This document shows positions 19,206 to 53,112 of a stretch of 64,000 nt of DNA, in pieces (positions within the stretch are counted from its first letter, which is position 1; the number at the start of each line of letters is the position of its first letter). The notes beneath the pieces are model-generated. The model saw nothing but the letters and a program-made list of their open reading frames with translations, searched no databases and was not told the DNA's origin. This DNA is from Muribaculaceae bacterium. GTDB lineage: Bacteria > Bacteroidota > Bacteroidia > Bacteroidales > Muribaculaceae. The position numbers were made by a program, and so were the translations under genes. The DNA is taken from positions 1,532,267 through 1,596,266 of the forward strand of contig JAMPAK010000001.1 of the NCBI GenBank assembly GCA_023667285.1, read 5' to 3'.

Positions 19206-19279
19206 GCTTCAGTAGCTCAGTTGGTTAGAGCACCTGACTGTTAATCAGGGGGTCGTTGGTTCAAGCCCATCCTGAAGCG
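19206..19279 (+). tRNA. tRNA-Asn (anticodon GTT)
   Basis: A full cloverleaf of 74 bases. The acceptor stem GCTTCAG pairs with CTGAAGC (19272-19278), with discriminator G. The anticodon stem CCTGA/TCAGG encloses loop CTGTTAA with anticodon GTT at 19240-19242. The T arm contains GGTTCAAGCC. CCA is not encoded. Confidence 0.97.
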
Positions 19280-19309
19280 CGAATTTTCATAAAACAAGCA
19301 TACACTAAT

Positions 19310-19383
19310 GCTTCAGTAGCTCAGTTGGTTAGAGCACCTGACTGTTAATCAGGGGGTCGTTGGTTCAAGCCCATCCTGAAGCG
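19310..19383 (+). tRNA. tRNA-Asn (anticodon GTT), second identical copy
   Basis: Identical over all 74 bases to the copy at 19206-19279, anticodon at 19344-19346. A 30-base spacer separates them. Both are read from the upstream promoter and end at the strong hairpin three bases downstream. Confidence 0.97.
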
Positions 19384-19385
19384 CA

Positions 19386-35422: not shown

Positions 35423-35451
35423 AGCAGTAAAAGAGTTTTTAAGACACAATC

Positions 35452-35480
35452 CCGGCTGCAGGAGTTTTTCCCGCAGCCGG
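35452..35480 (-). terminator. Possible hairpin terminator after nuoN
   Basis: CCGGCTGC (35452-35459) pairs with GCAGCCGG (35473-35480) around a 13-base loop, 30 bases downstream of the nuoN stop. There is no U-tract directly after it, so it may be only a weak or partial terminator before murI. Confidence 0.4.
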
Positions 35481-35510
35481 AATGAGTCTCCTATGTTGTC
35501 TGTAGATTTA

Positions 35511-36956
35511 TCAACCCACTACTACATTAAGAAGATAGTCATAGAAATAGCTTATGATACCGAGACCTATGATGCCTGCAGTGCATACCCACATTCCCAG
35601 TCTCTCAGAGCATGCCGAGCGGAATGTGGCGATGGGGTTGTCTGAGGGATTGATGAACATGGCCTTCACCACCAGGAGATAGTAGTAGAGGGAGATGATG
35701 GTGTTGATGAGTGCAATGAGGACCAGCACGTAGAGCGCGGCTGACCCGGTGCCGTTGAGTGCCGATGTGAACACGAAGAACTTGCTGAAGAATCCGGCAA
35801 ACGGGGGAATTCCGGCAAGCGAGAACATGGCCAGCATCATTGTGAACGACAAGCGGGGATTTGTAGTGTAGAGGGCATTGTAGTCTGTCATGTTCACCTT
35901 GCCTGTGGCATTCTCTATCGCTCCGATAACACCGAAAGCTGCGAGGTTTGAGAAGACATAGACAAGCACATAGAACATCAGAGCCGACACTCCCATGGGG
36001 TTATCGCCAACGATGGCGAGCATGATGTAGCCGGCCTGTGAGATGGACGAGAAGGCAAGGAAGCGCTTCATGTTGACCTGACGCATGGCAAAGAGGTTAC
36101 CGACTGTGATGGTGAGGATAATCAAAGCATAGAGCATCCACTCCCATGCACCCTCATAGAGTGTCCCGAACACCTGGGTCAGCACTACAAGAAATGCAAA
36201 TGCCGCAGAACCCTTTGAGATGACCGAGAGGTAAGAGGTGACTGACGTTGGAGCGCCTTGATATACATCTGCTGTCCAAAGGTGGAAGGGGACGAGCGAG
36301 AGCTTGAAGCCGAATCCGGCGATGAGGAATGCCAGGCCAATCACCATGGCCACACCCATGTTGCCCTGGACCGTAGAGGCCATGATGCTATAGTAGAGCG
36401 AGCCACACATGCCATAGACTATCGAGAGTCCCATCAGAAGAATGGCCGATGAGAAGACGGCTGTCAACACATATTTGATGGCTGCCTCATGGCTCTCATA
36501 GCGGTTCTTGTCAAAGGCTACAAGCGCACAGAGGGGGAGCGAAGCTGTCTCCAGGCCAATGATGAACATGAGGAAGTGACGGCTCGAAATCATGAAATAC
36601 ATGCCTAGGAGCGTGAGCATGATAAGTTCATAGAACTCACCGCGGCGGATGGCGACGAAGTCAGAGTTGGCCCACTTGATGGACTGTATCAGCACGATAA
36701 GGGCGCCTACGTTGAGAATATTCTTGATGGCAACGATTGTCGCATCTGTCTCATACATACCCGAGAAGGCGATGGCGTCGGCCTTGACGGAAGGGCAGAA
36801 GCCCAGAAGGGTTACAATTCCCATCAACACACACGAAACCACCGGAAGGGCTCCCTGAGCCTTGCGAGAGGCGAAGGTGTCATAGAAGAACACCAGGAGG
36901 AAGGCGATTAACAATCCGATTTCCTGCTTCAGACTTAAAAACTGTGAGTAATCCAT
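35511..36956 (-). CDS. nuoN: NADH-quinone oxidoreductase subunit N
   Basis: One of three antiporter-like proton-pumping subunits of complex I in the inner membrane. About 14 hydrophobic helices are visible over 481 residues. Family segments include KYVLTAVFSSAILLMG, FKLSLVPFHLWTADVYQGAPT, AYIMLA-type helix and GIPPFAGFFSKF. It is the last gene of the nuo-atp block, 27 bases after nuoM. A hairpin follows before murI. Confidence 0.96.
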   Translation of the reverse strand: MDYSQFLSLKQEIGLLIAFLLVFFYDTFASRKAQGALPVVSCVLMGIVTLLGFCPSVKADAIAFSGMYETDATIVAIKNILNVGALIVLIQSIKWANSDFVAIRRGEFYELIMLTLLGMYFMISSRHFLMFIIGLETASLPLCALVAFDKNRYESHEAAIKYVLTAVFSSAILLMGLSIVYGMCGSLYYSIMASTVQGNMGVAMVIGLAFLIAGFGFKLSLVPFHLWTADVYQGAPTSVTSYLSVISKGSAAFAFLVVLTQVFGTLYEGAWEWMLYALIILTITVGNLFAMRQVNMKRFLAFSSISQAGYIMLAIVGDNPMGVSALMFYVLVYVFSNLAAFGVIGAIENATGKVNMTDYNALYTTNPRLSFTMMLAMFSLAGIPPFAGFFSKFFVFTSALNGTGSAALYVLVLIALINTIISLYYYLLVVKAMFINPSDNPIATFRSACSERLGMWVCTAGIIGLGIISYFYDYLLNVVVG

Positions 36957-36983
36957 TGCTGTTTATTTCCGTTGCTTTCGTGA

Positions 36984-38495
36984 TTAGTGGAGACCGAGGA
37001 CGGTGAATATCTCGGGGCTGAATGTGAACTTGATGAGGTCGGCAAAGAAGTTGGGGAAGAAACCTATGCAGGCCACACAGACAATGAGAGTGGCTGTCGA
37101 GAGGCGCTCCCACCACTTGGCGTCGGTGAGGGACATGTGGTGCTGGTCGTAGACAGGGCCATAGAGCAGCTTGCCGACAACGCGGAGGATGTAGACCGCT
37201 GTTGTGACAATTGAGGAGCAGGCCACAATGACAAACACACGGTGGAAGAGGTCAGCATGCTGGAATGAGCCGACAAAGATTGTCATCTCGGCTACGAAAC
37301 CGGAGAGACCGGGGAGACCCAGCGAGGCCATGCCCGCTATGACGTAGCAGACAGAGAGGTAAGGCAAAATCTGCATCATGCCACCCATCTCGCGGATGTC
37401 GCGTGTGTGGGTTCGACCGTAGATCATACCGATGAGAGCAAAGAAGAGAGCAGTCATCAGGCCGTGTGAGAGCATCTGCATGATGGCGCCTGTCATCGCT
37501 GTGGTGTTGAGCATGAGGATGGCGAAGAGCACCAGGCCGCAGTGGCTCACGGATGAGTAGGCGTTGATATACTTGAGGTCGTTCTGCACACAGGCTGAGA
37601 AGGCTCCGTAGACAACCGAGATGCCTGTGAGGATGATGAAAATCCATGCAAGTTCGTTGGCAGCCTGAGGCATCAGATAGATGGCCACACGGAAGCATCC
37701 GTAGCCTCCGAGTTTCATCAGCACACCGGCATGGAGCATTGAGACGGCGGTGGGGGCTGAGGCGTGGCCGTCAGGCGACCATGTGTGGAAGGGGAACATG
37801 GCGCCCAGCACACCGAAGCCCACGAATGTCATGGGGAACAGGAACTGTTGCCAGCCATGGGGGATGGCCTCGTAGGCTGCAATCTCAAGGATGTTCCATG
37901 TGTGAGGCATCCCCTCGGGTGCTGAGTGATAGTATATGCCGATAAGACCGAGCATGAGGAAGGCAGAGCCCCCCATGAGCATCAGCGTCAGCTTCATGGC
38001 CGAGTAGTTCTTGTTGCCCGAGCCCCAGACTCCGATGAGGAGATACATGGGGATGAGAGCCACCTCATAGAACATGAACATGGTGAACAGGTCTATTGAG
38101 ATGAAGAAGCCATATACGCCTGTGGATAGGAGTATCAGCCAAAGGAAGAACTCTTTGGGCTGGGGAATCTCCCATGAGGCGAAACTGCCGGTGATGAGGA
38201 TGAAACCGGTGAGAATGAGCATTGCGATGGAGATGCCATCGACACCCACTGCGAGATGGATGTTGAGCGGTGTGAACCAACTCCACGACCCGACGTAGAG
38301 CATGGGGTCGGTGACGCCGGCTGCGCGGATGGCGAGATAGTCGATGAGAAGCCACACCGAGAGAGCCGTCAGAGCCACTGAGCCGGTGACGGCCACAGCG
38401 CGGATCTGCTTGATGTCGCGGCAGAGGAACAACCCCAGAAGCATGACAACGGGGATGACCACAAAGTAGATGAGTATATTGGAGAACATATCCAT
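36984..38495 (-). CDS. nuoM: NADH-quinone oxidoreductase subunit M
   Basis: Antiporter-like proton-channel subunit of complex I. About 14 transmembrane helices over 503 residues. Family motifs seen are FMFYEVALIPMYLLIGVWG, MFPFHTWSPDGHASAPTAVS, KLGGYGCFRVAIYLMPQA and GLPGLSGFVAEM. The conserved Glu of the MFYE helix and Lys of the later helices are retained. It lies 33 bases after nuoL and 27 before nuoN. Confidence 0.97.
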   Translation of the reverse strand: MDMFSNILIYFVVIPVVMLLGLFLCRDIKQIRAVAVTGSVALTALSVWLLIDYLAIRAAGVTDPMLYVGSWSWFTPLNIHLAVGVDGISIAMLILTGFILITGSFASWEIPQPKEFFLWLILLSTGVYGFFISIDLFTMFMFYEVALIPMYLLIGVWGSGNKNYSAMKLTLMLMGGSAFLMLGLIGIYYHSAPEGMPHTWNILEIAAYEAIPHGWQQFLFPMTFVGFGVLGAMFPFHTWSPDGHASAPTAVSMLHAGVLMKLGGYGCFRVAIYLMPQAANELAWIFIILTGISVVYGAFSACVQNDLKYINAYSSVSHCGLVLFAILMLNTTAMTGAIMQMLSHGLMTALFFALIGMIYGRTHTRDIREMGGMMQILPYLSVCYVIAGMASLGLPGLSGFVAEMTIFVGSFQHADLFHRVFVIVACSSIVTTAVYILRVVGKLLYGPVYDQHHMSLTDAKWWERLSTATLIVCVACIGFFPNFFADLIKFTFSPEIFTVLGLH

Positions 38496-38528
38496 GGGGT
38501 TACTATATAGTTGCTGTCATTGGGATTA

Positions 38529-40499
38529 TCAGATGATGCAGAGGGCTGTGATCACACCGAGAAGGACGGCTCCGATGAGATACCACCAGATATACATCTG
38601 GACACGCCCGCTCTGGAGGCCCTTGATGGCCTGAGATGCGGAGTTGGTGACATAGGCCAGACCATTCATGGCTCCGTCGATGATATGGCGGTCAAACCAT
38701 GCTATGGGCTTGCAGATTCCGTCGAAGATTATATTGTGTGTCACCCAGAGATAGAGTTCATCCCAGTAGAAACGATGGAGAGCGGCGGTCCAGAGCCAGC
38801 GGCAGGAGTCGGCCATGCGTGTGGGCTTGTCGTTTTTCTTCATATACAGCCAAGCAGCGAAACCTATGGCGACAGCGGCCACAGCGAGGCTCATGCCGGC
38901 GACAGTCCAGTCGATGTGGATGTGATACTCGTGGCCGTCAAATGTGACAAGCTCACCGAAGGGCACCCATCCGCAGCAGAAGGACACGGCTGCAAGGAAT
39001 ATGAGGGGAATGGTCATGGTGAGAGGTGACTCATGTGGCATTGATGCGTGGTGTCCGTGAGCCTCCTGCTCCTTGACGCGCGCAGCATAGTCGGGATTGT
39101 CCCACCAGAAGATGAGGAAATACATGCGGAACATGTAGAACGATGTCATGCCGGCCACCATCATCATCCACACGCCCCAGAAGGTGTTGCAGGCGAAGCA
39201 GGCGGCGAGAATCTCATCCTTTGAGAAGAATCCGGCCCAGGGCCAGATGCCTGCGATGGCGAGACAGCCGAAAAGGAATGTGATGTGAGTGATGGGCATA
39301 TATTTCCTGAGGCCACCCATGGCGGTGTAGTTGTTGGAGTGAACTGCATGGATGAGCGAGCCGGCGCCAAGGAAGAGAAGTGCCTTGAACATGGCGTGGG
39401 TGAACAGGTGGAACATGCCAGCCATGAAACCGAGACCCTCGTGGATGGGTTCGTTGTGGCGTGAGGCCACGCCGAGAGCAACCATCATGAAGGCTATCTG
39501 AGATATGGTCGAGAAGGCGAGGATGCGCTTGATGTCTATCTGAGCGCAGGCCACACAAGCCGCATAGAATGCAGTGACAGCGCCCACGACGGTGATGAAT
39601 GTCAGCGCGGCGTCCTCGAGCATATATAGCGGGAAGAGACGTGCGACGAGATATACACCTGCCACAACCATGGTGGCGGCGTGGATAAGGGCCGACACAG
39701 GTGTGGGGCCTTCCATGGCGTCGGGGAGCCAGATGTGGAGGGGAAGCATGGCTGATTTACCCATACCGCCGGTGAAGATGAGCACCAAGGCCCATGTGAG
39801 CACTGAGGCACCCATAAATGTGGCTCCTCCAAACGAGGCCATCACATCCTGGGGATGGAGGGTCATGGGGAGGAAGTCGAGCTGATGGGTGTAGAAACTC
39901 AGGACGAGGATGCCGATCAGGAAGCCAAGGTCGGCGAAGCGGGTCACAATAAATGCCTTCTTACAAGCCGAGACGGCCGATGGGAGGGTGTAGAAGAAAC
40001 CGATGAGGAGGAAGGATGAGGCACCCACGAGCTCCCAGAAGATATACATCTGGAAGATGTTGGTGGCGACAACCAACCCGAGCATCGAGAAACTGAACAG
40101 AGACAGAAAAGCATAGTAGCGCTGGAATCCCTTCTCACCCTTCATATAGCCCAACGAATAGAGATGGACCATGAATGAGATGGTGGGAATGACTACCAGC
40201 AGAAGGGCTGTGATGGGGTCGAGGAGGAAACCTATCTTAATGGCAAGCACATCTGTGAACTGCAGCCAGGTCATGTTGAAGAGTTCGACCGGCAGACGGT
40301 ATGTGCCGTCAGAGAAGAGAGGATTTCCTGAAAACCAATAGTTGAAGGCGGTGTAGTAACACAGGCAGAGGACGGTGCCCATGCCGAGGGTGCCGAGGAT
40401 TCCGGCAAACTTATGGCTCATCTTCATGCCCACAAGCCCCAGCAGGAGGAACATGAAGAATGGGATGGCCAGAATAAGGACGGGTATTGTAATATCCAT
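38529..40499 (-). CDS. nuoL: NADH-quinone oxidoreductase subunit L
   Basis: Distal antiporter-like subunit of complex I with the long lateral helix. About 16 hydrophobic segments over 656 residues. Motifs include FWELVGASSFLLIGFFY, GKSAMLPLHIWLPDAMEGPTPVSALIHAATMV, DIKRILAFSTISQIAFMM and HLFTHAMFKALLFLGAGSLIHA. A His-containing loop (EAHGHHASMPHES) lies near residue 485. It lies 15 bases after nuoK. Confidence 0.97.
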   Translation of the reverse strand: MDITIPVLILAIPFFMFLLLGLVGMKMSHKFAGILGTLGMGTVLCLCYYTAFNYWFSGNPLFSDGTYRLPVELFNMTWLQFTDVLAIKIGFLLDPITALLLVVIPTISFMVHLYSLGYMKGEKGFQRYYAFLSLFSFSMLGLVVATNIFQMYIFWELVGASSFLLIGFFYTLPSAVSACKKAFIVTRFADLGFLIGILVLSFYTHQLDFLPMTLHPQDVMASFGGATFMGASVLTWALVLIFTGGMGKSAMLPLHIWLPDAMEGPTPVSALIHAATMVVAGVYLVARLFPLYMLEDAALTFITVVGAVTAFYAACVACAQIDIKRILAFSTISQIAFMMVALGVASRHNEPIHEGLGFMAGMFHLFTHAMFKALLFLGAGSLIHAVHSNNYTAMGGLRKYMPITHITFLFGCLAIAGIWPWAGFFSKDEILAACFACNTFWGVWMMMVAGMTSFYMFRMYFLIFWWDNPDYAARVKEQEAHGHHASMPHESPLTMTIPLIFLAAVSFCCGWVPFGELVTFDGHEYHIHIDWTVAGMSLAVAAVAIGFAAWLYMKKNDKPTRMADSCRWLWTAALHRFYWDELYLWVTHNIIFDGICKPIAWFDRHIIDGAMNGLAYVTNSASQAIKGLQSGRVQMYIWWYLIGAVLLGVITALCII

Positions 40500-40514
40500 T
40501 GTGACTCTCTCTGT

Positions 40515-40826
40515 TTAGTATTTCATTTGAGTGGTGTCGCGGACATCGATGTTCTTGCTCACTCTGAAGAGGTTGATGATGATGGCAATGGCGAGCGCCG
40601 TCTCGGCGGCGGCGATGGCTATGCCGAAGAGTGTGAACATCCAGCCGTCCATCGAGCCGGGATAGAGATAGCGGTTGAAGACAACGAAGTTGATGTCGAC
40701 GGCGTTGAGCATGAGTTCGAGCGATATGAGCATCGCAATCATGTTGCGGCGTGTGAGGAAACCATAAACGCCGCAGCAGAACATCACCAGCGCCGGCAGG
40801 AGATAGTAGATCATTGTAAGTTCCAT
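40515..40826 (-). CDS. nuoK: NADH-quinone oxidoreductase subunit K
   Basis: Small membrane subunit of complex I with three helices and two conserved glutamates. The Glu in LISLELMLNAVDINFV and the one in AAAETALAIAIIINLF are both present. At 103 residues it matches the family length. It lies 15 bases downstream of nuoJ. Confidence 0.97.
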   Translation of the reverse strand: MELTMIYYLLPALVMFCCGVYGFLTRRNMIAMLISLELMLNAVDINFVVFNRYLYPGSMDGWMFTLFGIAIAAAETALAIAIIINLFRVSKNIDVRDTTQMKY

Positions 40827-40841
40827 GTCTGTCTTTCTGTT

Positions 40842-41357
40842 TTAGCGTTTGCGGGCGATGACTACGCCACCGATTATACATGCGAGAAGGAGAATGCTGA
40901 CAGCCTCGAAGGGTAGAAGATACTGCTCGTGACCGGTGCCCAGCATCTGCTCGCCTATCAGCCTCATGTCAGGGTTTGACATTGAGGGAAGCGAGTAGAA
41001 CATCTCGGTGCCTCTCGAGAGGAGGGCCCATCCTGCTGCACACGCGGCAGCGACGGCGCCGAGGAGTCCCAGAATCTGTTTGCCGGACTCAAGTTTGGCG
41101 GTATTGTCGCCGGGACGTGTTGTCAGGAGTATCGAGAACACAAACAGCACCACGATGCCTCCCGCATAGACTGCAATCTGGACAGTGCCCAGAAACTCAT
41201 AGTCGAGCTTGAAATAGAGGGCGGCCGTTGCAAACAGCACGAAGAGCAGATAAGTGGCGGCGCGCAGAATCTTGCGCGTGGTGACAGTCAGCACGGAGAA
41301 GATGACAATCGCAAGTGCGATTATCCAGTAACAAATTATACTTCCTACTGATTCCAT
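40842..41357 (-). CDS. nuoJ: NADH-quinone oxidoreductase subunit J
   Basis: Membrane subunit of complex I with five helices, forming part of the proton path near the quinone end. The segment YLLFVLFATAALYFKLDYEFLGTVQIAVYAGGIVVLFVF is the family signature region, including the Tyr-Ala-Gly-Gly-Ile motif. The 171-residue length is standard. It lies 29 bases after nuoI. Confidence 0.96.
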   Translation of the reverse strand: MESVGSIICYWIIALAIVIFSVLTVTTRKILRAATYLLFVLFATAALYFKLDYEFLGTVQIAVYAGGIVVLFVFSILLTTRPGDNTAKLESGKQILGLLGAVAAACAAGWALLSRGTEMFYSLPSMSNPDMRLIGEQMLGTGHEQYLLPFEAVSILLLACIIGGVVIARKR

Positions 41358-41386
41358 ATATTGTAAAAGGGTAATGTTTTTCCTTG

Positions 41387-42118
41387 TCAGTTGGCGCCCT
41401 TGGCCTTCTCGGCCTTGGCTTTGAGGGCCGCGAGGATTTTTGCTTTTTTCTCGGGGTCGCCTGCCACGGCTGCAAGTGCCTTACGCCCCTTCTCGTCTAT
41501 TTCAAAGCCATAGTCCTCCTCTGCAGGGGCTGCCGGCGCAGCAGGGGCTCCGGCCCCGGCGGCTGAAGCCTTTTTTGCCTCAGCGGCTGCCTTGGCGGCT
41601 GCCAGTTTGGCCTCTTTCTCGGCCTGCAGTTTTGCTATCTGCTCAGGAGTGGGCTTTGGTTCTTCTTTCTCAGGAAGGTAATTGAGTTGTTTGACAAGTT
41701 TGCCGCGGGTGAACACTGACTGCTCGAAGTCATTGCTGAACTCGAGGGCGTCGGTGGGGCAGTTGACCACACACAACTGGCAGAAGGTACAGGAACCCAG
41801 GTCGTAGATATACTTGTCGAGTTTCTTTTTCTTCTTTCCGTCCCAAGTCTCTACTGTGCGTCCCTTGAGGGTGATAGTGCCGTTGGGACACACTCGTTCA
41901 CATGTGCCACACATGATGCACTTGTGGTTGCCTTGGTCATCATATTTCAGCGACAGGACGGCGCGGAAACGGTCAGCCACAGGGAGGTTGTCTCGGTTGT
42001 CGGGATACTCTTCGGTAATCTTGGGTGTGACAAACTCCTTGCCGGTCACTGCCATGCCCTTGAGGAGCGTGCCTATGCCACCGGCAAGGTTAGAGAAATA
42101 TTCTTTTACACTTCCCAT
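41387..42118 (-). CDS. nuoI: NADH-quinone oxidoreductase subunit I with long Ala/Lys-rich tail
   Basis: Carries two 4Fe-4S clusters in the electron path of complex I. The ligands are Cys67, 70, 73, 77 (CIMCGTCERVCP) and Cys110, 113, 116, 120 (CTFCQLCVVNCP). The core ends near residue 150. About 90 extra residues follow, made of an Ala/Lys/Glu helix, an Ala-Pro-Gly stretch and a second Lys/Ala-rich helix to residue 243, whereas typical NuoI is 160-180 residues. It is the first nuo gene after the inserted atp genes, 26 bases from atpG. Confidence 0.96.
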   Translation of the reverse strand: MGSVKEYFSNLAGGIGTLLKGMAVTGKEFVTPKITEEYPDNRDNLPVADRFRAVLSLKYDDQGNHKCIMCGTCERVCPNGTITLKGRTVETWDGKKKKKLDKYIYDLGSCTFCQLCVVNCPTDALEFSNDFEQSVFTRGKLVKQLNYLPEKEEPKPTPEQIAKLQAEKEAKLAAAKAAAEAKKASAAGAGAPAAPAAPAEEDYGFEIDEKGRKALAAVAGDPEKKAKILAALKAKAEKAKGAN

Positions 42119-42144
42119 ATCTGGAGGTTGAAAAATTTGGTTTA

Positions 42145-43029
42145 TCAGTTGTTCACCTGGCCTCCCAGGATGTCGAGCAACTCGTTTGTGATTCCCTGCT
42201 GGCGCAACTTGTTGTATTCAAGCTGCAGCTGCTCGAGGAGGTTCTTTGCATTGTCGTTGGCGCTCTGCATTGCCATGATTCGCGCTGCCTGCTCTGATGC
42301 GCGGTTCTCGGTGAACACCTCCTGCATTGTCGATAGGAGATACATGGGGATTACTGAGCGGAAAATTGTGGGGGCATCCGGCTCAAAGATGCATGGACGG
42401 CAGAGGGATTTCACGCCGTCAGAGTTGAGAGCGGAGGCGTCGAGCGGCAGGAATGCATCTGAGCGGAGGCGCTGGCGGCTGACTGTCTGGAAGTTCATGT
42501 ACAGGAGGTCTACTCTGTCGAGTTCTCCTGAGAGGAATTTCTGCTGGATGTCGGTACAGAAGCGCTTCACGTCTGCCCCGCTCGACTTAGATGACACACC
42601 TGAGGCTGGCTCGCATGCGATTCCGTCAGCTACCAGTTTGCCACAGGCCTTAATCATCTTGCGGCCCACGGGGATAATCACTACCTGGACCCCGGCGCCA
42701 TATGTGTTGCGCAGGGCGGCAATCTTCTGGAGCAGGCCCTTGAAGATGTTTATATTGTAGCCGCCACAAAGCCCGTCGTCCGAGCCGAAGACCACGATAC
42801 CGGCTTTCTTCACCTCTCTCTCGTCAGTGAGAGGGGTGGTGAACTCTGCATCAGAACTGAGCAGATTGCCGATAATTGTCTCAATCTGTCTGCGGAAAGG
42901 GAGAAGGCGTCTCAAATCGGCCTCGGCACGGTGCATCTTTGCCGATGAGATCATCTTCATGGCTCCAGTGATTTTCTCGCTGGAGGCCACGGAGCCTATG
43001 CGTCCCTTGAGTTCGCGTAGTGTTGCCAT
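42145..43029 (-). CDS. atpG: ATP synthase gamma subunit
   Basis: Central rotor stalk of F1. The N-terminal helix MATLRELKGRIGSVASSEKITGAMKMISSAKM and the C-terminal helix EQLQLEYNKLRQQGITNELLDILGG are the coiled-coil signatures, with the Rossmann-like middle domain between. At 294 residues it is normal for Bacteroidota. It is the last ATP synthase gene, and nuoI follows after 26 bases. Confidence 0.96.
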   Translation of the reverse strand: MATLRELKGRIGSVASSEKITGAMKMISSAKMHRAEADLRRLLPFRRQIETIIGNLLSSDAEFTTPLTDEREVKKAGIVVFGSDDGLCGGYNINIFKGLLQKIAALRNTYGAGVQVVIIPVGRKMIKACGKLVADGIACEPASGVSSKSSGADVKRFCTDIQQKFLSGELDRVDLLYMNFQTVSRQRLRSDAFLPLDASALNSDGVKSLCRPCIFEPDAPTIFRSVIPMYLLSTMQEVFTENRASEQAARIMAMQSANDNAKNLLEQLQLEYNKLRQQGITNELLDILGGQVNN

Positions 43030-43035
43030 GGGTTA

Positions 43036-44607
43036 TTACTTATAAGCAGCTGCGACCTCGGCGGCGGCCTCGGTGAGGGCTGCGGTTATGGTGTCGTCAA
43101 GTTTGCCCGCGCGGATGCTGTCCATCACGTCGGGGTGCTTGGCGTGCATGAGCTGGAGGAAATTCTTCTCAAACTCGGCCACCTTGTCGAGAGGCACGGC
43201 TTCGAGAAGTCCGCGTGTGCCACAGAATATCACGGCCACCTCATCCTCTACGGCCATAGGTGAGTACTGTGGCTGGATGAGCAGGCGCTCGTTCTTGCGG
43301 CCCTTGTCGATGACGCGGGCGGTGACGGCGTCGATGTCGCCGCCGAATTTGGTGAACGACTCAAGCTCTCGGAACTGAGCCTGGTCAATCTTAAGTGTAC
43401 CGGCCACCTTCTTCATTGACTTGATCTGAGCGTTGCCACCCACACGCGACACGGATATACCCACGTTGATGGCGGGGCGGATGCCGCGGTTAAATAGGGC
43501 TGTCTCAAGGAAGATCTGACCGTCGGTGATAGAGATGACGTTTGTGGGGATGTAGGCTGAGACGTCGCCGGCCTGTGTCTCTATGATGGGAAGTGCTGTA
43601 AGGGAGCCACCACCCTTCACCTTGTCTTTGATCGACGCGGGGAGGTCGTTCATGTGAGAAGCCACCTCCTGGTTGTCGATAATCTTAGCGGCGCGCTCGA
43701 GCAGGCGGCTGTGGAGATAGAAGATATCGCCAGGATATGCCTCACGGCCAGAGGGGCGCTTTAGGATAAGTGAGATCTCACGATAGGCGACGGCCTGTTT
43801 TGAGAGGTCGTCATAGATGATGAGGGCATCGCGTCCGGTGTCTCGGATGTACTCGCCTATGGCCACACCCGCAAATGGTGCATAGTAGCGCATAGAGGCG
43901 GAATCTGAGGCGGTGGCAGCCACAACAACCGTATAGTCGAGGGCGCCGTGCTGACGCAGGGTCTCTACTGTGGCCGCAACGCTCGAAGCCTTCTGGCCAA
44001 TGGCCACATAGATGCAATAGACGGGGTTGCCCTCTTCAAAGAACTTACGCTGGTTGATGATGGTGTCAATGGCGATGGCGGTCTTACCTATCTGTCGGTC
44101 GCCGATGATGAGCTCGCGCTGTCCGCGGCCTATGGGCACCATCGAGTCAATGGCCTTCAGACCTGTCTGGAGGGGCTGCTTGACGGGCTGACGGAAGATG
44201 ACACCGGGAGCCTTGCGCTCAAGGGGCATCGGGAAGAGGTCGCCCTGGATGGGCCCGCGGCCATCAATGGGTTCGCCCAAGACGTTGATTACTCTGGAGA
44301 ACACACCTTCGCCCACATGGATTGAAGCGATCTCGCCTGTGCGCTTTACGGACATGTTTTCCGACACTTTGTTGACATTGTTGAGCAGGATGACACCGAC
44401 GTTGCTCTCTTCAAGGTTGAGGGCCACGCCTTTTACGCCATTTTCGAACTCCACGAGTTCGTTGGAGCGCACGTTGTCGAGGCCATAGACATGAGCCACG
44501 CCGTCGCCCACCTCCAGGACGGTGCCTGTTTCCTCAAAGGATACCTTTGAGTTGACGTTCTCGAGTTGCTGTCTGAGTACCTGAGAAATCTCGCTTGGGT
44601 TTATCAT
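43036..44607 (-). CDS. atpA: ATP synthase alpha subunit
   Basis: Non-catalytic nucleotide-binding subunit of the F1 hexamer. The P-loop GDRQIGKT is at 169-176. The arginine-finger region lies in the [11 protein letters not shown] segment, and the beta-barrel N-terminus [15 protein letters not shown] is typical. The 523-residue length is standard. It lies six bases before atpG and 46 bases after atpH. Confidence 0.98.
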
Positions 44608-44653
44608 TGGTGATGAGAAGGATTGTAAGGGTTGTGGGTGAGTGAGGGGGAGA

Positions 44654-45202
44654 TTATTTGCTTAATAAAGAGAGACGGAGTTGCTTGAGTTCGTTAGCCA
44701 CAGAGGCGTCAAGTTTCTCATTGTCAATCTTGACCGTGAAGCCGCCGATGAGCTCGGGGTCGATAGCGGTCTGATATTCCATGGTTGCGTCGCCCAGATG
44801 GGACTGCACCAGTGAACGGAGTCTCTGCTCCTCGGCCGGGTCAAGAGGCGCGGCCGAGGTGACAGTGACAAGACGGATGTTATGTTCCCGGCGATAAAGG
44901 CCGATATATGAGAGGGCGATTTCGCGGACCATGTCGAGGCGTCCGTTTTCAACCAGCAGCCCGAGAAACCGTTCAAAAGGCTTGCACCCGGCGGCATCGG
45001 GGCCGGCGGCGGTTGTGATGAGCGCCACCTTCTCCTTAGCGGCGACAAAGGGATTGGCCATGACCTTCTGTAGACCCGGCTCGGCGGCAAACGACGCCGT
45101 GAGGGTCTGCATGAGGCTGAAAACGTTCTTGTCGTCGCCACTCTCCGTAGCAAACTCATAGAGAGCCTTGGCGTAGCGTGCGGGAATTAAGCCTTGATTC
45201 AT
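44654..45202 (-). CDS. atpH: ATP synthase delta subunit
   Basis: Connects the peripheral stalk to the top of F1. The family opening [13 protein letters not shown] and the C-terminal region with [17 protein letters not shown] and [31 protein letters not shown] are clear. At 182 residues it is full length. It lies between atpF and atpA, the usual Bacteroidota order. Confidence 0.96.
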
Positions 45203-45244
45203 TTGGGTGAATGATGAGCGGGGTTGATGGGATTTCGGTTGGGT

Positions 45245-45742
45245 TTAGTTCTGTTTCTCCATATCGTCGAGCAGGGAGTTGACGAGCTGTTTCTGCGCGT
45301 TCTCCTGCTTGAGCTGGTTGCGGACAACCTTCTGGGCGATGTCGAGGGCAAAGGTTGAGACCTCGTTGCGGAATTGCTGCTGTGCAGCCTTGCGTTCCTG
45401 CTCGATGGAGACCTTGGCAGCGTCCATGACCTTCTTGGCCTCGGACTGAGCGGCCACACGTGCCTCCTCGATTATCTGGGTCTTCATTTTCTCTGCCTCC
45501 CGGAGGGTCTCGGCCTGCTGGCGGCGGGCCTCTGCTATCTGTCTATCCGCCTCTTCGCGGGCATGGTCAAGTTGTTCTTTGGCATTTTGAGCATACTCCA
45601 CACCCTTGTCGATGAGGTCGGCACGGTCAGAGACTCCTTTCATGATCGCGGGCCAGCCCCATCGCCACAGTATGACAAAGAGGATGGCAAAGGACACGAA
45701 CATCCAGAAGACCAGACCGAAATCAGGCGTGAATAGTTCCAT
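45245..45742 (-). CDS. atpF: ATP synthase b subunit
   Basis: Peripheral stalk protein. A single N-terminal membrane helix (LVFWMFVSFAILFVILWRW) is followed by a long charged helix rich in Ala, Glu, Gln and Arg over about 35-150, ending near LVNSLLDDMEKQN. The 165-residue length is typical of Bacteroidota. It lies 41 bases after atpE and 42 before atpH. Confidence 0.96.
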   Translation of the reverse strand: MELFTPDFGLVFWMFVSFAILFVILWRWGWPAIMKGVSDRADLIDKGVEYAQNAKEQLDHAREEADRQIAEARRQQAETLREAEKMKTQIIEEARVAAQSEAKKVMDAAKVSIEQERKAAQQQFRNEVSTFALDIAQKVVRNQLKQENAQKQLVNSLLDDMEKQN

Positions 45743-45783
45743 AGCTTACTGACGGGTGAGTGAGTCGAGTTTAGAGCCGTGGA

Positions 45784-46029
45784 TTATACGAACATTGCAA
45801 GGATGCAGACGATGACGGCGAAAAGAGCCACACCCTCGATGAGGGCTGCAATCACAATCATGTTGCTTCGGATATCGCCGGTAGCCTCAGGCTGGCGAGC
45901 GATAGCCTCCATGGCTGAGCCGCCGATTTTGCCGATACCGATACCTGCGCCGATGGCTGCGATGGCTGCGCCGATGCAGGCGCCGAGACCGAGGATACCT
46001 TCGATTGCTGCTAAAATCATTGCTAACAT
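45784..46029 (-). CDS. atpE: ATP synthase c subunit
   Basis: Forms the membrane rotor ring. Two hydrophobic helices flank the polar loop ARQPEA. The ion-binding carboxylate is Glu65 in AALIEGVALFAV; Gly rather than Ser or Thr follows it, and no helix-1 Gln/helix-2 Ser pair of sodium-type rings is apparent, so proton use is more likely. The start at 46029 gives 81 residues; an in-frame ATG at 46107 would add a 26-residue polar tail that overlaps atpB and is atypical. Confidence 0.95.
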   Translation of the reverse strand: MLAMILAAIEGILGLGACIGAAIAAIGAGIGIGKIGGSAMEAIARQPEATGDIRSNMIVIAALIEGVALFAVIVCILAMFV

Positions 46030-46103
46030 AGTTGTAGTAGTTTTATTGGTGATTAGTTTTAGAGTTCTGTTTATTCTGTTGAGTTGAGAGTTTTGAGAGT
46101 GGT

Positions 46104-47300
46104 TCAATGAGCCGGGGTGACCACGGGGGCTTCCTTATGTCCATCGTCGGCTTTCTCCTCATGCCCGCTGTGTTCCTCCTTCTCATGATGCTCCTCCTCC
46201 TGCCCGAGGGCTATGAATAGGGTGGAGAGCATGGTGAACACATATGCCTGGATGAAACTTACCAGGACGTCGATGCAGAGCATGAATATCGAGAAGAGTA
46301 CCGAGACTATGGCAGTGGCTCCGGTGACAACCGGCCCCATAAAGGCAAAGATGAATATGAGCAGTGTGAGCACGATGACTATCATGTGTCCACCCATCAT
46401 GTTGGCAAACAGACGGACTGTCAAAGCGGCCGGTTTAGTGAAGATGCCGAATATCTCAATGACAGGCATGATGGGGATGGGCCATTTGAGCCACCAGGGT
46501 ACGTCGGGGTTGAATATCTCCTTCCAATAATGCTTTGTAGCACATATATTGGTGATGAAGAATGTCAGCAGTGCCATCACGAGGGTCACGGCGATGTTGC
46601 CTGTAAGGTTGGCACCACCTGGGAAGACCACGATGAGCCCCATCAGGTTCATGATGAGGATGAAGAAGAAGGCTGTGAGCAGATAGGGGGCGAATTTCGG
46701 CGCCTTGTCCTTGAGCGTGGGCTTGATGACTCCGTCATAGATGAAGAATATCAGGAACTCGATCGCACCTGTCATTTTCCTCGGAGCCTTCATCCCTTTG
46801 GTCTTATGCCAACGGGCCACATCCAGGATACACCATATGCAGATAATCACGGCTATGAAGAGCGCACAGACATTCTTGGTGATGGATATGTCCAGCATAG
46901 GCTTGACCTCCTTGCCGTCGATAATCTCGACGACTTTCCCCTTGTAGGGTGAGTGGTGGCCGGCAATGCGAAACTCCGTGTTGCCGTCGCGCCATGTCTG
47001 GCCGTCCGTCACACGAGCCGATGAAAAGACGTGGAGTCCGTCAGACCCCCAGACGATCACCGGGAGAGGGATGCGCTTGTGGTGGTTGAAGGGGTATTCC
47101 CATCCGTAAGCATCTCCAAGGTGTTCAAAGATAATATCCTTGACGCTTTCCTCTTTCTCAGCCTCCTGAGTGGCCTCTTTCCCCGTTTCGTTGCCAGTGT
47201 CATTCCCCATAATGGAGGCTGACACCCCCACGGGCATCAGCAAGGCTGCAAGCCCGAGGACGATTGCTGTGAAGATTCGTTTGATTGTCTCCATGGTCAA
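46104..47300 (-). CDS. atpB: ATP synthase a subunit with periplasmic N-terminal and His-rich C-terminal extensions
   Basis: Stator half-channel of Fo. A signal-peptide-like segment (about 8-28) is followed by about 110 polar residues before the first core helix. The core holds the essential Arg in RLFANMMGGH (near residue 295) and the usual amphipathic helices. The final ~35 residues are His/Glu-rich (EEEHHEKEEHSGHEEKADDG) and lie beyond the last helix. At 398 residues it is much longer than the ~270 of E. coli. N-terminal extension is known in Bacteroidota; the acidic His tail is less usual. It lies 11 bases after atpC. Confidence 0.95.
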   Translation of the reverse strand: MTMETIKRIFTAIVLGLAALLMPVGVSASIMGNDTGNETGKEATQEAEKEESVKDIIFEHLGDAYGWEYPFNHHKRIPLPVIVWGSDGLHVFSSARVTDGQTWRDGNTEFRIAGHHSPYKGKVVEIIDGKEVKPMLDISITKNVCALFIAVIICIWCILDVARWHKTKGMKAPRKMTGAIEFLIFFIYDGVIKPTLKDKAPKFAPYLLTAFFFILIMNLMGLIVVFPGGANLTGNIAVTLVMALLTFFITNICATKHYWKEIFNPDVPWWLKWPIPIMPVIEIFGIFTKPAALTVRLFANMMGGHMIVIVLTLLIFIFAFMGPVVTGATAIVSVLFSIFMLCIDVLVSFIQAYVFTMLSTLFIALGQEEEHHEKEEHSGHEEKADDGHKEAPVVTPAH

Positions 47301-47311
47301 TATCGAGGGGA

Positions 47312-47548
47312 TTAATAGATGCAGACTGAGACGACATCCTTATCGACGTCTACCACACCTCCCTCAGTGTCAGTGGAGTGTTCCTCGCCGTCAGTGGCAG
47401 TGTAGCGTATCTGGCCGGGAGTGAGAGTTGAGATGAGCGACGCATGGCCGGGAAGCACCGTGAAGGCGCCTGAGGCTCCTGGCAGATGCACTGCCTTGAC
47501 CTCACCTTCAAAGAGAATGTCCTCAGCCGATATAATCTTGAGTGTCAT
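47312..47548 (-). CDS. atpC: ATP synthase epsilon subunit, short form without C-terminal helices
   Basis: Only the N-terminal beta-sandwich domain is present (LKIISAEDILFEGEVKAVHLPG, FTVLPGHASLISTL). The protein stops at 78 residues, so the two-helix C-terminal domain that inhibits ATP hydrolysis in E. coli and Bacillus is missing. Short forms are seen in other Bacteroidota. It lies 34 bases after atpD. No AtpI-like gene lies between it and atpB. Confidence 0.94.
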   Translation of the reverse strand: MTLKIISAEDILFEGEVKAVHLPGASGAFTVLPGHASLISTLTPGQIRYTATDGEEHSTDTEGGVVDVDKDVVSVCIY

Positions 47549-47582
47549 TGGTCTGCTTTATGGAGTTAGTTGAGGATTGAGG

Positions 47583-49124
<1,542 letters not shown>

Positions 49125-49160
49125 CTAAGGTAATATTGTGAGATATGAGAGATAATTTCT

Positions 49161-50237
49161 TTATAGATAAAGACCGAATGTCACCACAATCACCATCAGC
49201 ACAAGGTTGAAGAGATTGATGGGGAGCAGGTATTTCCACTCGAGGGTGAGGAGCTGGTCAATGCGCAGACGGGGGAATGTCCACTTGAACCAAATGATGA
49301 CAAACGATAGAGCCACGGCCTTGGCGAGAAACCATATCACAGAGGGTATATAGTCCATGATATTGTTGAATGCATCAAATCCGGGGATGTGGAGCGGCAT
49401 CCAGCCTCCGAAGAACAAAAGCGCCGCAACACCTGAGACGATGAAGAGATTAAGATACTCAGCCAAGTAGTAGAATCCGAAGTGGATGCCTGAATACTCT
49501 GTATGATATCCGGCGGTAAGCTCGCTCTCAGCCTCTGGGAGGTCAAAGGGACCGCGATTTGTCTCGGCTGTGCCTGCTATCATGAAGATGACAAAGGCGA
49601 TGATGGCCGGGATATGGCCTGAGAAGATGAACCAGAGATGTTCCTGAGCCATGCAGATGTCATGGACATTCATTGTTCCTGCTATGACTACCATGGTGAC
49701 GACACAGAGTCCCATGGAGAGCTCATAGCTCACCATCTGTGCGCCTGAGCGGAGGGCTCCGATGAGGGTGAACTTGTTGTTTGACGACCATCCGGCCAGC
49801 ATGATGCCGAGGACTCCGATGCTCGAGACAGCGAGAAGGAAGAAGATGCCGACATTGAAGTTAATGATCTCCAGACCGTTGCCCCACGGGAGGACTGCAA
49901 AGGCAAGCATCGACGCTATGATGACCAGGAAAGGAGCCAACTCAAAGAGGAACCTGTCGACATGGTTGAGGTGGATGAGCTCCTTTATGAGAATCTTGAA
50001 CATGTCGGCACAGCTTTGGAGCAGACCCCAGGGGCCTACACGGTTAGGGCCAAGTCGACACTGGAACGCCGCACAAACCTTACGCTCAAATAGAATATAG
50101 AACAGAGCAAGGAGAGCGTAGAGGAGCAACAGCCCCACGCCCACGAGCAGACACTCGAGAGTGACCGCTGCCCACTCGGGGATATATCCGAGCAGCAAGG
50201 AGTGGAACCATGATGTCGCTACTGATAAGTCTTGCAT
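49161..50237 (-). CDS. nuoH: NADH-quinone oxidoreductase subunit H
   Basis: Membrane subunit at the quinone-binding junction of complex I. About eight helices over 358 residues. Family segments are FERKVCAAFQCRLGPNRVGPWGLLQ, GWSSNNKFTLIGALRSGAQMVSYE, GPFDLPEAESELTAGYHTEYSG and WTFPRLRIDQLLTLEWKYLLP. Nearly every charged residue of these loops is kept. It is the last nuo gene before the atp genes. Confidence 0.97.
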   Translation of the reverse strand: MQDLSVATSWFHSLLLGYIPEWAAVTLECLLVGVGLLLLYALLALFYILFERKVCAAFQCRLGPNRVGPWGLLQSCADMFKILIKELIHLNHVDRFLFELAPFLVIIASMLAFAVLPWGNGLEIINFNVGIFFLLAVSSIGVLGIMLAGWSSNNKFTLIGALRSGAQMVSYELSMGLCVVTMVVIAGTMNVHDICMAQEHLWFIFSGHIPAIIAFVIFMIAGTAETNRGPFDLPEAESELTAGYHTEYSGIHFGFYYLAEYLNLFIVSGVAALLFFGGWMPLHIPGFDAFNNIMDYIPSVIWFLAKAVALSFVIIWFKWTFPRLRIDQLLTLEWKYLLPINLFNLVLMVIVVTFGLYL

Positions 50238-50299
50238 AATCGCTTATGGTGATTGGTGTGAATGTTGAGACTGTGATGTTTTATGGAGGACAGAGGGGG

Positions 50300-51928
50300 T
50301 CAACGGTCGATGTCGGGGACGATATAGTCCATCGAGCCACCGATGGTGATGAGGTCGGCGATTTTCTGGCCCTCTGTGATAAGGTCGACCACGGCCGCCG
50401 CAGGCAGACAGGGGGGCGCAATCTTTAGACGATATGGCATTGTCCCGCCATCGCTCTCGAGATAGAGGCCGAATGTGCCTCGACATCCCTCGACCATCCT
50501 GAACCAATGGCCTGCGGGAATCTTTAGCATCTTTGGGACCTTCACCTGGAACTCACCTTCGGGGATATTGTCGATGAGCTGGGCTATGATGCGGGCACTC
50601 TGCTCCATCTCCAGGACACGCAGTTTGAAGCGGGCCATGGCGTCGCCCTCCTGAAGGACAATCTCATCGAACTCGACCTCGTCATAGACGGCATAGGGGA
50701 AGTTCTTGCGGACATCGCAGGCCCAGCCGGATGCTCGGCCGTTGGGGCCGGAGACAGCCCATGAGATGGCCTTGTCGCGTGAGAGGACACCGACATTCTC
50801 CATGCGGTCTCGTGCGATGACGTTGCCGGTGAAGAGTGCATTGTATTCCTTGATATTGGCGGGAAGCACATCGAGAAGAGCGTGGACATCCTTGACGAAG
50901 TCGGGGTGAAGGTCGGCCATCAGGCCTCCGATTGTGGAGTAGTTGAAGGTCATGCGTGCACCACATGTGCGCTCGAATATGTCAAGTATCTGCTCGCGCA
51001 CTCTGAGAGCATAGAATAGCATCGTTGTGGCTCCGAGGTCCATGCAGTAGGTGCCGATAAAGAGGCAGTGTGACGCTATACGCGAGAGTTCATCCATGAG
51101 GACGCGGATGGTCTCGATTCGTTTGTTCACCTGGATTCCGGCGGCTTCCTCATAGAGCATGCAGAGGGCATGGTGATAATTCTGAGCCGAGAAATAGTCG
51201 AGACGGTCCATGAAGTGGAGTGTCTGCTGGTAGGTGTCCTCCTCACATATCTTCTCCACACCGCGGTGGATATATCCCAGATAAACATCTATCTTTTTGA
51301 TTGTCTCGCCGTCGACAGCGGTGCGGAAGCGGAGCACACCGTGGGTGGCGGGGTGCTGCGGGCCAATGTTGACCACAAAGTCATCGGGCTGGAAGATGCG
51401 GCGCACTTCCTTCTCGACTTTGCCATCCTTTTCCACCCACATGTCGGTGAAGTCGGTCTGGCGCTCGTTCTGGATTGAGACAGGGTTGAGGGCCGGATCG
51501 GCGTCATAGTCCTTGCGCAGTGGATAGCCTTTCCAGTCGATATTGAGGAAGAGGCGGCGCATGTCGGGGTTGTTGATGAAGATGATGCCGAGGAAGTCAT
51601 AGACCTCGCGCTCATATATTGTTGCTATGTCCCAGATGTCATAGACGGAGTGGACCATAGGCTTCTCGCGGTCACCGGTGGCAAGCACCTTGACAGAGAG
51701 ACACTCGTTGCGGTCTGTGGCCACCATATAGTAGACACATCCCATGCCGTTCTCTTTCCAGTCCATGCCGACGATGGTGACCAAGAAGTCGAATCCCAGG
51801 TCGTGGCACAGGACTGAGGCCACATTGTGCCAGTCCTTATCGGCCACGGCCAGTTCGAGGCCGGCGTTACCGGTGGCTATTGTCACTTCCGGGAAGAGTT
51901 TTGCAATCGTTTCCTGTGTATTGCCCAT
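50300..51928 (-). CDS. nuoCD: NADH-quinone oxidoreductase fused subunit C/D
   Basis: A single 542-residue protein. The NuoC part (about 1-160) has YEREVYDFLGIIFINNPDMRRLFL. The NuoD part (about 178-542) begins VVNIGPQHPATHGVLRF and ends with the IVPDIDR segment typical of this subunit. NuoD helps form the quinone site. C/D fusion is common in Bacteroidota and gamma-proteobacteria. It lies 49 bases after nuoB and 62 before nuoH. Confidence 0.97.
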   Translation of the reverse strand: MGNTQETIAKLFPEVTIATGNAGLELAVADKDWHNVASVLCHDLGFDFLVTIVGMDWKENGMGCVYYMVATDRNECLSVKVLATGDREKPMVHSVYDIWDIATIYEREVYDFLGIIFINNPDMRRLFLNIDWKGYPLRKDYDADPALNPVSIQNERQTDFTDMWVEKDGKVEKEVRRIFQPDDFVVNIGPQHPATHGVLRFRTAVDGETIKKIDVYLGYIHRGVEKICEEDTYQQTLHFMDRLDYFSAQNYHHALCMLYEEAAGIQVNKRIETIRVLMDELSRIASHCLFIGTYCMDLGATTMLFYALRVREQILDIFERTCGARMTFNYSTIGGLMADLHPDFVKDVHALLDVLPANIKEYNALFTGNVIARDRMENVGVLSRDKAISWAVSGPNGRASGWACDVRKNFPYAVYDEVEFDEIVLQEGDAMARFKLRVLEMEQSARIIAQLIDNIPEGEFQVKVPKMLKIPAGHWFRMVEGCRGTFGLYLESDGGTMPYRLKIAPPCLPAAAVVDLITEGQKIADLITIGGSMDYIVPDIDR

Positions 51929-51977
51929 TATCTTTATAATAATGTGTATGTGGTATGATCAGAATGTGTGTCGGCCG

Positions 51978-52646
51978 TTAGTTCTGTGAGGGTGCGATGT
52001 CCTCAGACTTCTCTATATTAGACACTGTGCTCACTGCGAGCTCGGTATCGTCATCTATGGGATGCGCGGCCAGGAACTCCTCCTGCTTCTGCTTGCGGTT
52101 GACACCTCCGAAGAAGCGCTCCACCTTAATCTTGCGCGAGAGCTGCATGATTCCATATATCATGGCCTCAGGGCGAGGAGGACAGCCGGGGACAAAGACA
52201 TCGACGGGGACAATGTCCTCGATGCCCATGGCCACACAATAACTCTTCTTGAAAGGGCCGCCTGAGATAGCGCAGCTGCCGCAGGCTATCACATATTTAG
52301 GTTCGGAAAGCTGGTCGTATAGACGACGGAACACGGGCACCATCCTGTGGACGATGGTCCCGGCCACCATCATGAAGTCAGCCTGACGGGGCGAGGCGCG
52401 GGCCACTTCCCATCCGAAACGCGCCATGTCATAGCGCGCGGCTCCAAGCGACACAAATTCAATGCCGCAGCAACTGGTGGCGAAGGTGAGGGGCCAGATG
52501 GAGTTAGACCGCCCCCAGTTGATGAGTTGGTCAAGCGAGCCGACGACAACGTTTGTGCCGTTGTCCTGCAGTTCCTTGACAAGTTTCTCTATATACTCGT
52601 TGTCCTTCCATGCCTCATAGGGCATGCCCTTTGTAGTTATTTCCAT
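51978..52646 (-). CDS. nuoB: NADH-quinone oxidoreductase subunit B
   Basis: Carries the terminal N2 iron-sulfur cluster next to the quinone site. The ligands are Cys59-Cys60 (TSCCGIEF), Cys125 (CGSCAISGG) and Cys155 (VPGCPPRPE). A polar C-terminal extension of about 45 residues (KQKQEEFLAAHPIDDD ...) follows the conserved core, giving 222 residues. It overlaps nuoA by ten bases. Confidence 0.97.
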   Translation of the reverse strand: MEITTKGMPYEAWKDNEYIEKLVKELQDNGTNVVVGSLDQLINWGRSNSIWPLTFATSCCGIEFVSLGAARYDMARFGWEVARASPRQADFMMVAGTIVHRMVPVFRRLYDQLSEPKYVIACGSCAISGGPFKKSYCVAMGIEDIVPVDVFVPGCPPRPEAMIYGIMQLSRKIKVERFFGGVNRKQKQEEFLAAHPIDDDTELAVSTVSNIEKSEDIAPSQN

Positions 52647-53005
52647 TCGAGCGCTCCTTTCCGCCAGGCATAGACAAGGCCCAGCACTATGATTGCGAAA
52701 AACACTGCGATGGCTGTCAGTCCCTGTGCACCTATCTCCTTGACCCTAACGGCCCAGGGATAAAGGAATACAGTCTCGACATCAAACATAAGGAAGAGGA
52801 TGGCAAAGAGGTAGTAGCCCACCTTGAAACGTGCCATCGACTCTCCGCGTGTGGGGATGCCGCACTCATAGGCTTCTCCCTTCTGCGGATTGTAGGAACT
52901 CGGCGAGATCAACTTCGCAATCACCAGCGCGGCTGCCACGAGAGCGATGCCCGTGATAAGCGCCGTGACGGCGAGGGTGACATTTTGAATTTCTAAAGCT
53001 ATCAT
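52637..53005 (-). CDS. nuoA: NADH-quinone oxidoreductase subunit A
   Basis: Small membrane subunit of complex I with three helices. The loop YECGIPTRGESMARFKVGYYLFAILFLMFDVETVFLYPWAV is the family signature, with the quinone-site Cys and the conserved Asp-Val-Glu. At 122 residues it is standard. It is the first gene of the nuo-atp block, about 90 bases downstream of a TATATTTG element. Confidence 0.97.
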   Translation of the reverse strand: MIALEIQNVTLAVTALITGIALVAAALVIAKLISPSSYNPQKGEAYECGIPTRGESMARFKVGYYLFAILFLMFDVETVFLYPWAVRVKEIGAQGLTAIAVFFAIIVLGLVYAWRKGALEWK

Positions 53006-53104: not shown

Positions 53105-53112
53105 CAAATATA
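53105..53112 (-). promoter_or_regulatory. -7 promoter element for the nuo-atp operon
   Basis: The minus strand reads TATATTTG then C, a perfect TAnnTTTG. No -33 TTG was seen at the usual spacing. The leader to nuoA would be about 90 bases and contains a CTCCGG/CCGGAG hairpin (53061-53088). Confidence 0.55.

Follow-up and report, generated by a model that had tools for sequence, protein, structure and literature searches.

The closest described counterparts of the locus reported here are found within the Bacteroidales. In B. fragilis, the nuo genes for complex I form one operon of the 11-subunit type (BF638R_0850-0841) that lacks nuoEFG and, as far as the accessible part of that study goes, is contiguous and has no atp genes inside it (PMC7002350). 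Ormerod et al. 2016 described ATP synthase genes integrated in the complex I locus of 'Ca. Homeothermaceae' (S24-7, now Muribaculaceae), where complex I was present in 25 of 30 genomes as 11 of 14 subunits and without NuoEFG (PMC4936053, from the portion of the paper available). A third point of comparison is provided by the free-standing Bacteroidales operons of the order atpD-C-(x)-B-E-F-H-A-G (loci L245-L255, L258 and L259), which have, where unsplit, the same gene order and the same short epsilon subunit as the atp genes studied here. The locus analysed in this work lies in the window, that is, the whole stretch of 64,000 nucleotides taken from a Muribaculaceae bacterium (GCA_023667285.1, contig JAMPAK010000001.1, positions 1,532,267 to 1,596,266), and consists of a complete ATP synthase gene set placed between nuoH and nuoI.

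The gene set comprises 18 genes spanning ∼17.5 kb on the minus strand, which read from 53005 to 35511 as nuoA-B-CD-H, atpD-C-B-E-F-H-A-G and nuoI-J-K-L-M-N. Each gene was matched singly against NCBIfam and Pfam profiles, and the order, strand and coordinates proposed by a first-pass annotation made from the sequence letters were confirmed for 18 of 18. The intergenic gaps are 66 bp between nuoH and atpD, 26 bp between atpG and nuoI and -10 to 62 bp elsewhere. The features are as follows:

53105..53112, minus strand, promoter -7-like motif TATATTTG, 107 bp upstream of nuoA
52637..53005, minus strand, nuoA (PF00507)
51978..52646, minus strand, nuoB (TIGR01957, above cut-off)
50300..51928, minus strand, nuoCD, a fusion (PF00329 and PF00346)
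49161..50237, minus strand, nuoH (PF00146)
49095..49160, minus strand, junction 1, nuoH-atpD, 66 bp, without promoter or terminator signal
47583..49094, minus strand, atpD, beta subunit (TIGR01039, above cut-off)
47312..47548, minus strand, atpC, epsilon subunit, 78 amino acids, N-terminal domain only (PF02823)
46104..47300, minus strand, atpB, a subunit (TIGR01131, above cut-off)
45784..46107, minus strand, atpE, c subunit (TIGR01260, above cut-off); the TTG start used here is probably too early, with an ATG 26 codons further in
45245..45742, minus strand, atpF, b subunit (TIGR01144, above cut-off)
44654..45202, minus strand, atpH, delta subunit (TIGR01145, above cut-off)
43036..44607, minus strand, atpA, alpha subunit (TIGR00962, above cut-off)
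42145..43029, minus strand, atpG, gamma subunit (TIGR01146, above cut-off)
42119..42144, minus strand, junction 2, atpG-nuoI, 26 bp, without promoter or terminator signal
41387..42118, minus strand, nuoI (4Fe-4S domains; TIGR01971 at 98.5 bits, below the cut-off of 113)
40842..41357, minus strand, nuoJ (PF00499)
40515..40826, minus strand, nuoK (PF00420)
38529..40499, minus strand, nuoL (TIGR01974, above cut-off)
36984..38495, minus strand, nuoM (TIGR01972, above cut-off)
35511..36956, minus strand, nuoN (TIGR01770, above cut-off)
35449..35483, minus strand, terminator-like hairpin 3' of nuoN, 15 pairs of which 9 are G-C, with a weak T tail

Both sets had been annotated as complete. This holds for the F-type ATP synthase, all eight subunits of which (a, b, c, alpha, beta, gamma, delta and epsilon) are found in the atp block, but not for complex I, since nuoE, nuoF and nuoG are missing from the set. 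Like the locus of Ormerod et al. 2016, which would belong to the same clade, the present one has an F-type ATP synthase inside a complex I locus that is without NuoEFG (PMC4936053, in part). The suggestion that the arrangement had not been described is contradicted by their report for the same family, an outcome that the first-pass annotation had itself named as refuting: the nested layout is real, conserved and already described, and the open-licence literature searched yielded no second description of it. Relative to the accessible portion of that report, we add the insertion point, the junctions, the spread to other families and an analysis of promoters. As far as the literature searched shows, the insertion point across relatives, the occurrence in seven families, the grouping of the nested genomes as one clade by each tree and the lack of a promoter signal before the nested atp block are new.

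To place the nested order among the Bacteroidales, to which the survey was confined, 295 genomes were searched for NuoH; 278 gave some match and strong matches were taken further. Gene order was then read in the NuoH regions of 80 genomes from 53 families, made up of the 40 top NuoH scorers besides the window's own genome and 40 others picked by hand to add families. Nested loci accounted for 25 of the 80 and constituted every locus of seven families (f1, the window's own, f18, f24, f54, f61, f80 and f99 in our numbering). By family, 7 of 53 were nested, 45 had nuoI directly after nuoH and one was cut off; across the 46 families outside the nested group, nuoI follows nuoH in 54 of 55 loci, the contig ending after nuoH in the other. 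This is the gene-neighbourhood comparison that the first-pass annotation had proposed, and it shows that nesting is usual for the family, and equally for six others that were sampled, rather than being peculiar to this genome. The statement that nuo is contiguous in Bacteroides agrees with these 54 of 55 loci and with the B. fragilis operon (PMC7002350, in part). The nested order, known for the window's family since 2016, is seen here as a derived trait that seven sampled Bacteroidales families have in common. Moreover, at least 554 matches were confirmed among named relatives, and 76 of the best 80 are nested, including Barnesiella, Coprobacter secundus, Duncaniella muris and Paramuribaculum intestinale, a share that is biased toward nesting by a lead query from a nested family and by taking the best 80 among the matches listed. 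The four contiguous ones are two Butyricimonas, a Sanguibacteroides and an environmental Bacteroidales. In the NCBI taxonomy, Coprobacter and Barnesiella belong to the Barnesiellaceae and Duncaniella to the Muribaculaceae. We also noted that one locus (L200, from G026, family f26) has no nuoM or nuoN match within 11 kb after nuoL, and that another (L201, from G083, family f83) has no nuoL, nuoM or nuoN match within 12 kb after nuoK.

Within the window's own family, 74 genomes including its own were sampled. In 68 of them (counted by eye), a single contig carries NuoH and AtpG on the same strand at a distance of 6.7-7.9 kb, and the other six were examined singly. Five are cut by contig ends (G350, G297, G329, G336 and G337); among these the nuoH-atpD junction is present in 5 of 5 and the atpG-nuoI junction in 4 of 5, the contig of G329 stopping beside atpG. 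In the sixth, G357, NuoH and AtpG are on separate contigs, both junctions are present and the break falls inside atpF. Each of the two pieces (L233 and L234) ends at an N run of 100 bases, and an identical stretch of 55 bases is found next to the break in both, which makes a scaffolding error likely. In G207 (L199), nuoJ-N were not seen after nuoI, inside which there is a 100-base N run; the public assemblies of G357 and G207 probably both contain scaffolding errors within the gene set. With cut or broken loci counted as fitting, the nested order fits 74 of 74 family genomes. Scaffold gaps and contig ends thus do interrupt the region in several relatives, which is what an assembly artefact in the window would draw on. 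However, the window contains no N, and its two junctions are found again in many separately assembled genomes, isolates included, which rules out chance as well as an assembly join; we regard the latter as next to impossible.

The origin of the arrangement was addressed with trees of NuoB+CD+H+I and of AtpD+B+E+A+G from 41 genomes, 25 of them nested (LG+F+G4, ultrafast bootstrap). The nested genomes form one clade in both, with a support of 95 for nuo and 93 for atp; f80 branches first, and the main branches inside the clade agree between the two trees, some inner nodes being weak (48-89). A single relocation of the atp block is the simplest reading of these trees. In the common ancestor of the Muribaculaceae/Barnesiellaceae clade, the resident atp operon would have been inserted as a block between nuoH and nuoI, losing its promoter in the process, and the whole set would have been inherited since. 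The trees differ, against this, on the sister group of the nested clade: family f96 is its sister in the atp tree (97) and is grouped with f20, f53 and f9 in the nuo tree (88). Such a disagreement could be expected if the atp block had been acquired from another lineage and had landed in the nuo operon. We hold this acquisition to be very improbable, given the same main branches of the nested clade in both trees, the even G+C content (0.541, 0.556 and 0.541 for the three blocks) and the fact that OSCP points to a single ATP synthase in the window's genome.

Among free-standing atp operons, that of f96 resembles the nested ones most closely (AtpD 79-80%) and shares with them the direct succession of atpC by atpB. 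Free-standing atp operons mostly carry a small membrane-protein gene at this place, in contrast to the nested sets. A gene for a small hydrophobic protein (∼120-160 amino acids), AtpI-like by position only, was seen there in ten loci (L247-L250, L252-L255, L258 and L259); none was seen in f96 (L245 and L246), in f9 (L251) or in those nested sets that were checked. In one f96 genome (G096:C8; L245 with L060), nuoH and the free-standing operon are on opposite strands ∼24 kb apart, which is perhaps near the state before nesting and perhaps due to chance.

If the atp operon was relocated as a block, its transcription may have passed to the promoter upstream of nuoA. We looked for TAnnTTTG, which we take to be the -7 consensus of Bacteroidales promoters, within 250 bp upstream of start codons, dropping loci without 250 clean bases and deriving the expectation from first-order shuffling. 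The 151 distinct loci comprised 91 nested, 58 contiguous and two assigned to neither class; for free-standing atpD, 30 loci were fetched and 5 dropped by the script rules, leaving 25. Upstream of nuoA, the motif is present in 55 of the 79 nested loci (shuffled 18%) and 33 of the 56 contiguous ones (20%), and it precedes atpD in 18 of 25 free-standing operons (20%), whereas nested loci show no enrichment before atpD (8 of 90; shuffled 13%) or nuoI (3 of 71; 5%). At the ten other internal starts, it is below expectation in eight, about equal for nuoH (6% versus 5%) and above it for nuoL. This pattern does not amount to proof, but it favours a loss of the atp promoter on relocation and reading from nuoA. 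In the window itself, neither junction gap contains a minus-strand promoter-like or terminator-like site, as the first-pass annotation had stated, and the whole region is near its shuffled expectation (18 promoter-like sites versus 13.5, standard deviation 3.5; 15 terminator-like versus 12.5, standard deviation 3.9). Judging from sequence comparison, we think it probable that the 18 genes form one transcription unit, created by a single relocation of atp with loss of its promoter and read mainly from the nuoA promoter. Transcription would then pass through both junctions, a reading with which the short gaps and the terminator-like hairpin after nuoN agree.

Several observations weigh against this transcription unit. 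A -33-like partner accompanies the motif before nuoA in only 25 of 79 nested loci, and the -7-like motif of the window has none. The motif occurs ∼183 bp upstream of nuoL in 16 of 69 nested loci against 9% expected, and an internal promoter before nuoL is possible. The atpG-nuoI gap of relatives is wider (up to 201 bp) than the nuoH-nuoI gap of contiguous operons, which leaves room for a start site. Finally, the loci are related, so that the counts are not independent. The nuo and atp genes could instead be neighbours in order only, atp and/or nuoI-N having their own promoters outside the consensus and being regulated separately. The excess of the motif before nuoL would fit such promoters, as would a promoter-like site (9 of 12) inside nuoH at 49531-49503, ∼410 bp upstream of atpD, and an atpG-nuoI gap that is often 40-115 bp in relatives. 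Median gaps, duplicates counted, are 48 bp for nuoH-atpD (n=102), 68 bp for atpG-nuoI (n=82) and 15 bp for contiguous nuoH-nuoI (n=58). Nevertheless, a motif that is at or below the shuffled level before nested atpD and nuoI and enriched before free-standing atpD, together with gaps lacking a minus-strand terminator-like site, makes separate promoters unlikely. Among the upstream sequences listed, no conserved leader before nuoA was evident by eye beyond the motif.

The first-pass annotation had also proposed that one transcript could set a fixed ratio of proton pump and ATP synthase. The comparative motif data favour the single transcript. They do not extend to the fixed ratio, because one transcript ties only transcription and the subunit numbers per complex differ; with such unequal numbers, translation would have to be tuned gene by gene. 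The long transcript, if true, would couple the synthesis of the two machines, H+ pump and H+-driven ATP synthase, at the level of transcription, the protein amounts being set for each gene at translation.

The first product of the locus would be a complex I without its NADH module, the electron donor of which is perhaps ferredoxin or flavodoxin. nuoE and nuoG are absent from the locus by open reading frames and profile matches, no separate genome-wide search having been made for either. A NuoF encoded elsewhere was considered and rejected: PF01512 (Complex1_51K) matches one protein of the genome, which is 93.8% complete, and this protein is RnfC, because it also bears an RnfC_N domain. Of two NQR2/RnfD matches, one belongs to an Nqr locus that includes NqrA and the other to an Rnf-like locus. 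The rnf set is apparently split in two: RnfC adjoins an RnfB-like polyferredoxin, and an RnfD-like subunit lies with a further Rnf-Nqr membrane subunit ∼490 kb away (L196:8225-10433 and L197:6392-9129, pieces of the window's own genome near 614 kb and 1.104 Mb on G000:C11). For B. fragilis, the accessible part of the study states that the nuo complex without NADH module gave no measurable NADH:quinone activity, that its authors propose an unknown donor, that nuo is dispensable for this activity and for mouse colonisation, and that its expression is low in rich medium (PMC7002350). Since this standalone nuo operon is poorly expressed, how the nested clade secures its level of ATP synthase becomes a testable question.

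It can also be asked why the nesting has persisted. It may be a frozen accident, one transcript that brings no advantage and is kept since breakage would cut two essential sets. A single origin needs no repeated selection, independent nesting was not seen in the other 46 sampled families, and nuo without NADH module is dispensable in B. fragilis; on the other hand, no reversal was found in the 74 family members or the sampled nested families, although atp blocks are split or rearranged elsewhere in the Bacteroidales. We give this explanation a little less than an even chance. That selection keeps the nesting, through co-synthesis from one message and perhaps co-assembly at the membrane into a pump-synthase unit, with a functional insertion point between nuoH and nuoI, appears doubtful in the extreme from the sequences compared.

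The epsilon subunit of the ATP synthase scores 66.0 bits on TIGR01216 (cut-off 67.25) and is above the cut-off of PF02823; a short epsilon (77-90 amino acids) was found in 24 of 24 loci measured, nested and non-nested, and the N-terminal-only form of 78 amino acids is ordinary among these loci. The OSCP search of the window's genome gave one match, the atpH of this operon, which by this marker rules out a second ATP synthase. When the c subunit is aligned to the sodium-specific chain 1yce, Q is replaced by I and S by G beside the carboxylate. The Q and S of 1yce are presumably Na+ ligands, and the alignment at these positions suggests an enzyme of the H+ type.

Outside the gene set, a phosphoglycerate mutase gene lies upstream and a glutamate racemase gene downstream, past the hairpin. 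The window also carries, at 19206-19384, two tandem tRNA-Asn(GTT) genes with 29 bp between them.

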